Assembly: GCA_020354645.1 (NCBI GenBank)
Contig: CP070652.1
Span: 518,909-582,908, forward strand
Origin: Deltaproteobacteria bacterium
GTDB taxonomy: Bacteria > Desulfobacterota > Desulfobacteria > Desulfobacterales > G020354645
Length of the DNA: 64,000 nucleotides
Direction: 5' to 3'
The notes below the pieces were generated by a model. The model was not told the DNA's origin and ran no database searches. It was given only the letters and a program-made list of their open reading frames with translations. The position numbers and the translations under genes were made by a program. Each line of letters begins with the position of its first letter. Positions within the stretch are counted from its first letter, which is position 1. Below are positions 1,716-48,547 of the stretch, piece by piece.

Positions 1716-2024
1716 GCTTGTTCTCCTGACTGGGCGTTTAGAAAAGAATGGTCGATAATAACCTGTCCAATAATAGGTGCCCATAAGAGATAGTGCCACC
1801 CGATTCTTGCTGATGAAACTTATTATCAGGAGATGGGCTCAGCGGGCAACGTGTAAAAGATGATACATATCCATCTTTCATCAATTCTCTCTCTGCGGGT
1901 CTTTTGACATTCCGGCGGTCGATCCTTACCATGTTATAATTATTTTCAGAGACGGCACAAGCATCGAAGACAACCAGCAGATCGCAAGTCTGGTCATCAA
2001 ATGGTCTCATCGGTGTTACGGAGT
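1716..2024. other. intergenic region between divergent ada-like and lplA genes
   Basis: This stretch separates the Ada-like gene (minus) from the lipoate ligase gene (plus). A minus-strand open frame of 90 codons (1738-2010) crosses it but has no ribosome binding site or recognisable motif and overlaps the Ada-like start region, so I do not call it a gene. No clear promoter was identified. The region ends at the first short hairpin repeat (2025). Confidence 0.5.
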
Positions 2025-2070
2025 GAGGCTCCCCGCCCTTAAGGGCGGGACTTCCCGGAAAGCGAACCGG
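2025..2070 (+). repeat. short GC-hairpin repeat (R1), internally deleted form of the 335-bp element
   Basis: After GTGA (2023-2026) comes a hairpin with CCCCGCCC/GGGCGGG arms around TTAA. The sequence then joins GGAAAGCGAACCGG, the right-end signature of the two 335-bp elements. The following bases TCATAT are also shared with the right flank of the copy at 4646. It therefore looks like left end plus right end with the centre removed. It lies about 120 bases upstream of the lplA start on the same strand. Confidence 0.75.
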
Positions 2071-2193
2071 TCATATTTTTTAGGATCCATCAGCCGGCGG
2101 TCTTTAAACGATATCAAAACCAACTCCGAATCGGGCCAATTTGACGCAATCATCCGAACAGCTGAGGTTTTCAGTCATAACATACACGATGCA

Positions 2194-3186: not shown

Positions 3187-3226
3187 ATTAAGGGATGGAC
3201 TTTGGGCTAAAAATATTTTTAAAAGT

Positions 3227-3278
3227 GAAGCTCCGCCCCTGAAGGGGGGGGGCTTCCCGGAAAGGAAAATATCCATTA
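3227..3278 (+). repeat. short GC-hairpin repeat (R2), left-end fragment
   Basis: GTGA is followed by GAAGCTCCGCCCC, a TGAA loop and a GGGG-rich arm ending GGCTTCCC. Then comes GGAAAGGAAAATATCCATT, which resembles the sequence after the left hairpin of the 335-bp copies (GAGGAAAATGTCTATT). It is therefore a fragment of the left end. Lying just after the lplA stop and between convergent genes, it could also act as a transcription terminator. Confidence 0.65.
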
Positions 3279-3329
3279 CCGTCCGGCTTTTACCTGTACC
3301 CCCAAATATCGATCCTAAAAACTGCGTGT

Positions 3330-4040: not shown

Positions 4041-4645
4041 TTTTGGTATTCCCCGCAAAAGGTTATCTCAGATAATTTTAACCAAATTGTGAAATGCATG
4101 TCTTTAACCGTTAATTAACAATTGTAAAGGTACTTATGTATAAATAATTACGGAAATGGCAAATATCAAATGATTTATCTTAATACGGGGATCTGAGTGA
4201 ACCAAGAATCAATTTTTTGTCTGGATTTCCTTTCCATTAATTTATCTAGCAATATCGGCAGATTGTAATCCTCAAACAACCTAAATGATATAACGAGCAG
4301 GAATAAAAACACAAATTTTACCTGGTAATCCAAAAATGTATCGGCAGACTACCGGATACCAGACAGTATCGGTGGGGGAACTAGTGGTGCGGAAAAAAAT
4401 CTGAAAGGTTTATTAAAACGATCGCCCCCCTTTGTTAATCCACAAATTACCATATGGATAATTTGGATAACAAATGGTTACAAAATGAAATCAAACTGCC
4501 GGCGAGTGGTAAAATTGCTGATGCACCCTCATTCAACTATGAACCTGCCCAAAGTTATTTTACAAATTAAGAATTGTGCCTATTATAAAAGGAATAATTT
4601 CAGACGTCTGTCATGGTGAAATTAACAACCCCCAAATTAATTTGT
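4041..4645. other. AT-rich intergenic region
   Basis: About 600 bases without a convincing open frame, motif or RNA gene. It is AT-rich and may hold the promoter for the DUF2845-like gene near its left edge. I see nothing else in it. It ends at the left hairpin of the first long repeat. Confidence 0.5.
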
Positions 4646-4980
4646 GAAGCTCCCCGCCTTGAAGGGCGGGGTTTCCCGAAGAGGAAAATGTCTATTTCAG
4701 ATTAGTCAGAAATCGGGATATTTTTTGCACGACAAGATCATCGCCCCGGTGCTTTTAACTGACAGGGGGCTGCTGCCACCTGGAAAGGCAAACTTCGATC
4801 TCGGTTCCGGGGACAGTGACGGTTGTCATCAGCAGACGGCAAATTTTCAGGCAGTTGCCGCTGCCGGATCGGGCAGGTGATAACCCGGCATCTTGTCGCT
4901 GCAAAAATTGCCCCGATCCCTGAGATAACTTCTCTGCCCCCCCCCCCTTAAAAGGCGGGGCTTGCAGGGAAGCGAACCGG
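4646..4980. repeat. 335-bp structured repeat, copy A (candidate IS200/IS605-type non-autonomous element or orphan omega-RNA/HEARO-like RNA)
   Basis: Copy A is roughly 90% identical by eye to copy B at 14148-14479. It begins after GTGA with a GC hairpin (CCCCGCC/GGCGGGG) and ends with another (CTGCCCC...GGGGCTTGCAG) followed by GGAAGCGAACCGG. Internal helices that can form include TCCCGA/TCGGGA (4674-4718), CTGCTG/CAGCAG, CGGCAA/TTGCCG and GGATCGGG/CCCGATCC. No convincing ORF lies inside. GC terminal palindromes without a transposase fit IS200/IS605-related passenger elements. The structured interior could instead be a guide-type RNA. It sits about 70 bases upstream of the M16 protease start. 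Confidence 0.75.
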
Positions 4981-5048
4981 TCATATATTGCGGGTGTGCA
5001 ACTTTTACGCCCATTTCCCCAGTAAAATACCAGCAGGAGGAATTGATC

Positions 5049-13908: not shown

Positions 13909-14147
13909 CAGGCAAAACCGGTATACATGTATGGTCAGGTAAGCATTTAAAGTAATTACCACCATCAAATTATACTAAAATACTGCAATTAAGCCGGTTC
14001 AGGCAAGGTATATTTTTGGGGCGCAGAAAACATCGCCCATTCAGTCTGCCAACAACTTGACACCTATTTTTACATACCTACCTTACCATTGTATTTGTTT
14101 TCATAAATCCAAAATAAAATCGCTGGTAATTGTTAACCCCTGTCAGC
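13909..14147. other. intergenic region between dnaK terminator and repeat copy B
   Basis: No gene or clear signal seen. The stretch is moderately AT-rich and ends at the left hairpin of the second long repeat. Confidence 0.4.
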
Positions 14148-14479
14148 GAAGCTCCCCGCCCTTCAGAACGGGGTTTCCCCAAGAGGAAAATTTCTATTTC
14201 AGATTAATTAGAAATCGGGGTAATTTTTGCACGACAAGATCATCGCTCCGGTGCTTTTAACTGACAGTGGGCTGCTGCCGCCTGGAAAGGCAAACTTCGA
14301 TCTCGGTTCCGGGTACAGTGCCGGTTGTAATCAGCAGACGGCAAATTTTCAGGCAGTTGCCGCTGCTGGATCGAGCAGGTGATAACCCGGCATCTTGTCG
14401 CTGCAAAAATTGCCCCGATTCCTGAGATAACTTCTCTGCCCCCCCTTTAAAAGGTGAGGCATGCAGGGAAGCGAACCGG
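14148..14479. repeat. 335-bp structured repeat, copy B
   Basis: This is the second full-length copy of the element at 4646-4980, colinear with it from the left hairpin to the terminal GGAAGCGAACCGG. Differences are scattered. The left hairpin keeps a CCCCG/CGGGG pairing with a larger loop, and the internal helices CTGCTG/CAGCAG and CGGCAA/TTGCCG are unchanged. The GGATCGGG/CCCGATCC helix of copy A changes to a version that still pairs with one wobble and one mismatch. The left flank is GCGA instead of GTGA. It lies about 30 bases upstream of the FemAB-like gene, whose open frame runs back into the right end. Confidence 0.75.
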
Positions 14480-14511
14480 CCAAATGCATACCCGGTGTAT
14501 TTACAATTGCT

Positions 14512-45455: not shown

Positions 45456-46000
45456 TCGGACTGTCCCAAAAAAGCACACTTCCTGCCCATATAGAAATTT
45501 GGGAACATTACCTACCATTTGGGACTCTCTCCTACAAAAATGAATTGGAATCCCTATGGACATCCGATTTAAATGTTATGATAATATTTGTTATTGATGA
45601 TCTCGTAAAAGTCTTTGGTGTGCGACATTAAGTCGAGCCTGGGCGGAAGAAAAAGAGTGATAAATCCTAAAAATGTTCACGAAGCGGACAAAAGTGACTT
45701 TTTACGATACCGTCAATTATAAGCATCGAGAAATAAAAGGGCGCTTTGGAGGCTACATTTACACGCGCTCGCGGAGGGTGGTTCTTTCAGCTATGAGAAC
45801 CGCCCTTCGGATTCTTTCGCCGATTAGAATTTTTCCCCCACCAATTTGTCTATCGAAAACCCTATTAATTAATATCGCCTGTAATATTTATCTAGCCATA
45901 CCTTTACGAAAACGCCTTGTGCGGAAAATTGACAAGGAACAGCATATTCCCATATAATGGCCGCACGCATGACCCATAATCATTAAACAAAAAAAGAATT
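45456..46000. other. intergenic region with a hairpin
   Basis: About 545 bases before the hairpin repeat at 46001. A plus-strand frame (45673-45957) has no ribosome binding site or motif and crosses a hairpin, so I leave it out. The hairpin at 45775-45806 is listed separately. Confidence 0.45.
45775..45806. other. isolated 11-bp hairpin
   Basis: AGGGTGGTTCT and AGAACCGCCCT pair over 11 positions with one wobble, around a 10-base loop. There is no following U-run in either direction, so it is not a standard terminator. It may belong to an unrecognised RNA. Confidence 0.4.
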
Positions 46001-46066
46001 GAAGCTCCCCGCCCTTAAGGGCGGGGCTTCCCTTAAAGAAAAGGCAGGGCTTTCAGGGAAGCAAGT
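46001..46066 (+). repeat. short GC-hairpin repeat (R5), internally deleted form
   Basis: GAAGCTCCCCGCCCTTAAGG continues into GCGGGGCTTCCC, then after AAAGAAAA comes GGCAGGGCTTTCAGGGAAGC, close to the right end of the 335-bp copies. It therefore joins left and right ends with the middle missing. It lies about 65 bases upstream of the sensor kinase on the same strand. The left flank is TTGA. Confidence 0.72.
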
Positions 46067-46129
46067 CGATCAAAAACGGCAACACCAAGCATAAACAGTA
46101 ATTCCTAAGAATTCCAAAATCTTGGAGCG

Positions 46130-47833: not shown

Positions 47834-48476
47834 CCATCCTCTATTCAGGGAAGGCCTCAGGTCTATAATCAGTCGCAATACCGGATACAAAGTTGTCGGC
47901 GAGGCAGGCACGGGGCGCGAAGGTTTAGAACTTGCGCTGGCGCTCAAACCCGATTTGATATTAATCGATATTTCCTTACCCGACAAAAGCGGAATAACAC
48001 TAACCCGCGAAATCCGCTGCCGTTTATCTGAAACTCGCGTTTTGATCATCAGCATGCATTCAAAAATAGATTATATTGCTGAAGCCTTCCAAGCCGGCGC
48101 AACAGGTTACGTTGTTAAAGAATCTGCCTCAAACGGTCTGTTGAGAGGTCTCGAAACAGTGACTAAGGGTGACTATTTCTTGGACAGTTCCCTGAGTCAT
48201 GCAGTCGTGGAGAATTTGTTAAATTTCCCGATAAAAGAGGCAAGAATCAGAGATGATGATTATGGTAGTCTAACGCCTCGAGAACAAGAGATTATGCGTC
48301 TGTTGGCTGAAGGTTTTTCAAACAAAGAAATCGCAAAAAAGCTTTTCATAAGCCCCAAAACCGTTGAAAACCATCGGTCGAATATTATGGGCAAACTTGG
48401 ACTCCATAGCACCATCGAGTTGGTTCGCTATGCTGCAAGGCTCGGTCTGATCGATGTCGATCTCTGGAAAGAGTAA
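47799..48476 (+). CDS. NarL/LuxR-family response regulator
   Basis: This 225-aa regulator has a receiver domain with the acidic pocket IVDDH, acceptor Asp57 in LILIDISLPDKSG and Lys in VVKESAS. A LuxR-type helix-turn-helix output domain follows, with LTPREQEIMRLLAEGFSNKEIAKKLFISPKTVENHRSNIMGKL. It is controlled by the kinase at 46130. The start GTG 47799 has GGGAG 7 bases upstream and overlaps the kinase by 35 bases. The frame can be extended to a TTG at 47772, which I consider unlikely. The target genes are unknown. Confidence 0.94.
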   Translation: MAQKKSIVIVDDHPLFREGLRSIISRNTGYKVVGEAGTGREGLELALALKPDLILIDISLPDKSGITLTREIRCRLSETRVLIISMHSKIDYIAEAFQAGATGYVVKESASNGLLRGLETVTKGDYFLDSSLSHAVVENLLNFPIKEARIRDDDYGSLTPREQEIMRLLAEGFSNKEIAKKLFISPKTVENHRSNIMGKLGLHSTIELVRYAARLGLIDVDLWKE

Positions 48477-48493
48477 TCTAAACGTTTATTACC

Positions 48494-48547
48494 GGGAAGC
48501 CCCCGCCTTTCAGGTCGGGGAGCTTCACTGACAGTCGGAAGCGAACC
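48494..48547 (-). repeat. short GC-hairpin repeat (R6)
   Basis: Read on the minus strand, GTGAAGCTCCCCGACCTGAA is followed by AGGCGGGGGCTTCCC, the same left hairpin as the other copies. On the plus strand GGAAGCGAACC (48538-48548), the right-end signature, follows the hairpin. The parts are thus rearranged relative to the long copies. It lies just after the response regulator stop and could work as its terminator. Confidence 0.6.

Follow-up and report, generated by a model that had tools for sequence, protein, structure and literature searches.

The window, that is, the whole 64,000-nt stretch analysed here, contains two copies, A (4646-4980) and B (14148-14479), of a 335-bp repeat. The copies are colinear, non-coding and strongly foldable, and each consists of a small palindromic mobile element lying inside a second, GC-hairpin mobile element. 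Shorter and partial copies of the outer element are also present in the window. The features are as follows.

2023..2083, + strand: short one-hairpin copy of the outer repeat with both ends and without the inner MITE (repeat family D2/D3; profile match; end by eye)
3225..3279, + strand: outer repeat, left part only (repeat family D2/D3; profile match)
4644..4702, + strand: copy A, left part of the outer repeat, from the GTGAAGCTCCCCGCC hairpin to the central AT loop (profile 41 bits; family end alignment)
4707..4923, + strand: copy A, nested inner MITE of core1 type with terminal inverted repeats (profile 187 bits on + and 22 bits on -, that is, palindromic)
4923..4983, + strand: copy A, right part of the outer repeat, terminus GGGAAGCGAACCGGTCA (profile 34 bits; end alignment)
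14147..14204, + strand: copy B, left part of the outer repeat (profile 31 bits)
14210..14425, + strand: copy B, nested inner MITE of core1 type (profile 180 bits; tree sister of the core of A, support 0.99)
14426..14482, + strand: copy B, right part of the outer repeat (profile 27 bits)
46000..46075, + strand: outer repeat, shortened, without the inner MITE (repeat families D2/D3; left-end profile match)
48476..48528, - strand: outer repeat, left part, reversed (profile 23 bits)

A and B were 92-93% identical: the direct-repeat search paired them ungapped across 298 nt with 93% identity, and BLAST gave 92% across all 335 nt. These values agree with the roughly 90% identity of colinear copies estimated in a first-pass annotation of this DNA. 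As also described there, GC hairpins bound both copies on either side, the copies share a terminus (GGAAGCGAACCGG; their last bases are GGGAAGCGAACCGG), and they lack an ORF, the long ORFs that touch them being mechanical. Profiles placed the ends of the composite at about 4644-4983 (A) and 14147-14482 (B). Both copies gave stronger folds than dinucleotide-preserving shuffles, with a fold-energy z value of -3.8 (RNA) and -4.6 (DNA) for A and of -4.7 (RNA) for B. The internal helix proposed earlier between GGATCGGG (4866-4873) and CCCGATCC (4912-4919) can be paired on paper but is absent from the predicted fold of A, in which CCCGATCC, as the right terminal inverted repeat, is paired with its left counterpart, and GGATCGGG is placed elsewhere.

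With A as the query, 53 matches were obtained in its own genome (5.57 Mb, one contig). Many of them span only query positions ~61-283, and some have flanks on the strand opposite to that of the core. When the matched loci were read, they resolved into two superposed repeat families. Both families have dozens of copies in the genome, so that copies are by no means limited to A and B; such a limitation would have told against the first-pass annotation. That annotation took the repeat as one unit and missed the two nested elements, each of which is abundant by itself.

The outer element is a GC-hairpin repeat of ~112 bp (TGAAGCTCCCCGCC…GAACCGGTCAA), laid out as two GC hairpins and a small central stem-loop (CTATC…GATAG). 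The consensus of compact insert-free copies in the own genome (L071, L072, and L086), drawn up by eye, is TGAAGCTCCCCGCCCTGAAGGGCGGGGCTTCCCGGAAAGGAAACTATCTATTTCAGATAGCTTCCCTTAACCCCGCCTTAAAAGGCGGGGCTTGCAGGGAAGCGAACCGGTCA. According to the end profiles, the boundaries lie at TGAAGC and GGTCAA, and conservation ends beyond them. The left hairpin alone as the query gave at least 41 matches in the same genome, with 40 of the 149 first-look candidates scored. No target-site duplication was detected in the 22 copies with both ends, whose flank similarity was not above that of shuffles (all z<=1.6). Read on the minus strand, the repeat starts with TTGACCGG and ends with GGGGAGCTTCA; TTGAC is strongly conserved at the left end of this strand, likewise in other MAGs. 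Insert-free copies also occur in Desulfobacterales MAGs, namely CSMAG_1163, bin239 (CP070768), and a Guaymas deltaproteobacterial MAG (L097/L100, L208, L210). Over 27 nt, the right end has the same sequence as DNA at the 3' side of a Y1 (IS200-type) TnpA gene in a Woesearchaeal MAG (L212); the hairpin of this end was not found in viral contigs.

GC-hairpin ends, the lack of a duplication, and a TTGAC-like left end are traits of IS200/IS605-type transposition, and the end profiles show that subterminal hairpins and a conserved short left-end sequence are both present in the outer repeat. An IS200/IS605-type passenger had been considered earlier for the whole 335 bp. Such an origin is plausible for the outer 112 bp, judged from its hairpins, the absent duplication, and the 27-nt TnpA-side match; the inner part is a separate MITE.

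The inner element is 215-218 bp long and carries terminal inverted repeats of ~32 bp (C/GAGGGGTCGGGGT.TTTTTT.CACGRCAAGAT), and its profile matches on both strands, with these repeats at either end. Free copies of the core2 type are flanked by AT-rich target duplications of 8 bp; the identity of their flanks at exactly k=8 was 0.72 versus 0.54 for shuffled pairs (z 8.0). The sister MITE family miteB (181 bp) has the same GAGGGGTCGGGG 12-bp tips and a different, almost perfectly palindromic interior, and it likewise has AT-rich target duplications of 8 bp, its flank identity at k=8 being 0.84 versus 0.63 for shuffled pairs (z 6.6). The rough consensus of 20 target duplications is A-A/T-T/A-T-A-A/T-T-T. 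The 12-mer GAGGGGTCGGGG of the terminal inverted repeat occurred 99 times, and the reversed-pattern control 0 times. Loci of miteB in the own genome (C1) include L115-L143 and, within the census sample described below, 477810-477988, 4424159-4424338, and others; deletion forms of 110 bp were also seen. The inner core was found neither in 58 genomes of the same order nor by a pattern search of the wider genome contigs.

In the nests, the inner MITE interrupts the outer repeat at its central AT loop. Core2 nests duplicate the outer loop sequence (ATTTTAGAT / ATTTTTGAT). Core1 copies are almost always nested, and their nests have one common junction (CAGATTAA joined to TCAGGG on one side, CCTGA joined to GATAGC on the other), at which a target duplication is not visible. 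This junction occurs with the core in the same orientation as the outer repeat (for example, 523615 and 4616129) and in the opposite orientation (for example, 4626783, 3454080, and 831952), which suggests inversion inside the nest and not separate insertions. In the tree, nests were distributed over the core1 clade, a core2 subclade, the separate core2 copy 3935655, and a long-TIR relative; this amounts to at least three nesting lineages. The tree pairs the cores of A and B as sisters (support 0.99), and the nearest outer-left and outer-right sequences of B are those of A. Since both the cores and the outer parts are closest to each other, A and B descend from one nest, and the composite has moved or been copied as a unit.

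For the census we used an unbiased sample of 1.2 Mb, taken in stretches (C1 400001-1200000 and 4400001-4800000). In this sample, the outer profiles matched 30 left ends and 29 right ends, the inner profile matched 34 times, and the miteB profile 25 times. Extrapolation gives, to an order of magnitude, 100-200 of each element genome-wide. By reading, ~14 of the 34 inner matches were inside outer repeats, which make up only ~0.3% of the sample; the binomial chance of this is about 1e-23, a value to be read with the events being not independent and the nests having also multiplied. Greedy ORFs cover 81% of the sample, whereas the mean ORF overlap of outer and inner elements was only 9-16%. This mostly intergenic placement fits neutral or slightly harmful insertions that are kept where they are least damaging.

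For neither the outer nor the inner element did the searches yield an autonomous relative whose ends match. The own genome has six Y1 genes, three DDE_Tnp_1 hits, one ISL3, and one IS1595 fragment, none of which is flanked by the end pair. In the search for a parent of the inner MITE, the PF01609, PF01610, and PF12762 matches in this genome had no flanking pair of terminal inverted repeats. The flanks of the six Y1 genes (L031-L036) contained no intact outer repeat, and Y1 genes in genomes G021 and G023 were likewise not flanked by outer-repeat ends. A RAYT with the outer repeat as its REP/BIME was rejected as a candidate because none of L031-L036 is flanked by that repeat. These genes encode 325-360 aa; several are bounded by short ends of their own (e.g. 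AGGGGTCAAGTCTG…CAGACTTGACCCCT), some of them AGGGGTCAAG-like, and the genes with their own ends are apparently a separate single-gene mobile family. Another candidate, a pair of terminal inverted repeats 3.4 kb apart (3404269-3407731) considered as a full transposon, proved to be two separate small MITEs around ordinary genes.

We conclude that A and B are, very probably, nests of two non-autonomous transposable elements. Because the outer repeat has GC-hairpin ends and no target duplication, single-strand transposition of the HUH/Y1 (IS200/IS605) type is its most likely mode of spread. The inner MITE most likely spread by cut-and-paste, with a DDE-type transposase that acted on the terminal inverted repeats (~32 bp) and left an 8-bp duplication of the AT-rich target. 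The AT-rich loop of the outer central stem-loop (CTATCTATTTYAGATAG) resembles the preferred target of the MITE, so that inner elements have landed there repeatedly. One nest (core1) then multiplied as a unit, with A and B as two of its copies, and the mobilising enzymes of both elements would have been lost. The core1 nests, which have one junction, both orientations, and no target duplication, are not explained by simple insertion. Two non-autonomous elements of different transposition chemistry might even have formed a lasting partnership, in which the MITE lands safely in the outer hairpin loop and the outer ends multiply the pair by single-strand transposition while the interior flips its orientation, although we regard this elaboration as rather unlikely.

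Insertion at fixed points of REP palindromes has been described for IS1397, IS621, ISKpn1, ISPpu9, ISPpu10, ISPsy8, ISRm22, and others (PMC1525189). Like these elements, the inner MITE has entered an abundant intergenic palindromic repeat time and again at the same position; the REP-targeting elements make a short target duplication in some cases (PMC1525189), and the core2 nests duplicate the loop sequence. Unlike them, the element inserted here is a non-coding MITE with an 8-bp AT-rich target, which also inserts freely elsewhere, and one nest multiplied as a unit. Palindromic repeats as insertion targets are thus already known, and what is new is an example that is built from two MITEs and whose nest was multiplied. 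As for bacterial MITEs in general (reviewed in PMC10969869), the inner element resembles them in being short, non-coding, and intergenic, with terminal inverted repeats, target duplications, and many copies, but differs from typical ones in that several interior-related subfamilies with different ends coexist. The outer repeat shares subterminal GC hairpins, the lack of a duplication, and a short conserved end (minus-strand TTGAC) with non-autonomous IS200/IS605-type elements, of which the palindrome-associated elements of Haloquadratum are reportedly an example. In contrast to such elements, it resides in a genome without a matching TnpA/TnpB, and the only matching right end seen was that of the Woesearchaeal TnpA element (L212).

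To evaluate the fold, covariation was scored in an R-scape-like manner (G-test with average product correction), with a null in which substitutions were moved along a FastTree phylogeny. Over all column pairs, no pair reached E<0.05, either in the 34 core1 and core2 copies or in all 46 copies. Restricted to the pairs predicted by RNAalifold, two were significant, both in the stem of the terminal inverted repeats, at modest power (mean 3.2 substitutions per pair). Across all 46 copies, RNAalifold predicted no more than short, scattered helices. The first-pass annotation had taken the helices as a sign of selection on structure and the lack of covariation as evidence to the contrary. Our data favour the latter, since the signal is restricted to the stem of the terminal inverted repeats and no internal helix contains a significant pair.

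The outer repeat also recalls REPs and REPINs with their RAYT (PMC2817692, PMC3116915), in that it forms intergenic GC hairpins that are often paired, at a scale of about a hundred copies, in a genome with Y1 genes. The composite could be viewed as a REP/BIME-like regulatory or chromosome-organising repeat adopted by the host, with its structure under selection. The mostly intergenic position, high copy number, and hairpins are compatible with this view, as is an outer family common to several Desulfobacterales MAGs. We nevertheless consider it improbable. The intergenic position would also result from purifying selection against insertions, and covariation is confined to the stem of the terminal inverted repeats. 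None of the six Y1 genes has the outer repeat at its sides, and, by inspection, the hairpins are not accompanied by a GTAG or CGTC tag of the kind usual in REPs (family definition in PMC3733652). Nothing above chance pointed to a promoter or terminator function: one terminator match was at chance level, and one promoter match lay outside the repeat.

Even less probable, to the point of being very doubtful, is that the 335-bp unit serves a transposon system as guide or effector RNA (a HEARO/omega-RNA of IscB or an reRNA of TnpB), or is a passenger carrying one. This was a lead of the first-pass annotation, and it draws on the fitting size, the strong folding, the GC terminal hairpins, and a minus-strand right end that resembles IS200/IS605 right ends. 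However, the Rfam search called for in that annotation matched no family at the gathering threshold in the whole window, and HEARO was absent near copy A even at E up to 5. The TnpB domain (PF07282) was absent from the own genome, with a working control; for the IscB domain (PF14239), the genome gave no match and the control was equally silent, so this result is uninformative. Moreover, the fold consists mostly of the inverted repeats of nested DNA elements, and the internal helices show no significant covariation (at modest power). The idea that outer and inner parts are one element, from which the 'empty' outer and 'free' inner copies arose by deletion, is scarcely tenable even though core1 copies are almost always nested at a single common junction, because the free core2 copies have 8-bp target duplications flush with their own ends, so that the inner part moves alone and the idea is refuted for core2, and because insert-free outer copies exist in genomes where no inner copy was found and nests arose in several inner lineages.

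The 335-bp repeat is no new structured RNA; it belongs to a familiar class of transposon debris. It illustrates that nested mobile elements can yield a strongly folded, conserved-looking non-coding repeat, which is a trap for structured-RNA and omega-RNA searches. It also provides a well-populated natural case of a MITE repeatedly entering one point of a hairpin repeat, which is useful for studying target choice and safe-haven insertion.

Some related repeats were seen alongside these elements. Longer-ended relatives of the inner element (TAGAGTGATTCTCAAAA…TTTTGAGAATCACTATA) lie at C1 437960-438330, 717760-718110, 828910-829290, and 616330-616830; they look like TA-duplicating elements, and one of them interrupts an outer repeat at the TA in that repeat's central stem. 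Palindromes of yet another kind (…GTGCTTTTGCC…CACGGYATGGTCGTTG…), which may represent a fourth repeat family, occur beside or inside outer repeats (own genome 1159272-1159503, and the flanks of L011, L091, and L013). At L006 (C1 5309971-5310306), the inner element lies between two right outer halves in inverted order, and the flanks are mirrored, forming a very long near-perfect palindrome.
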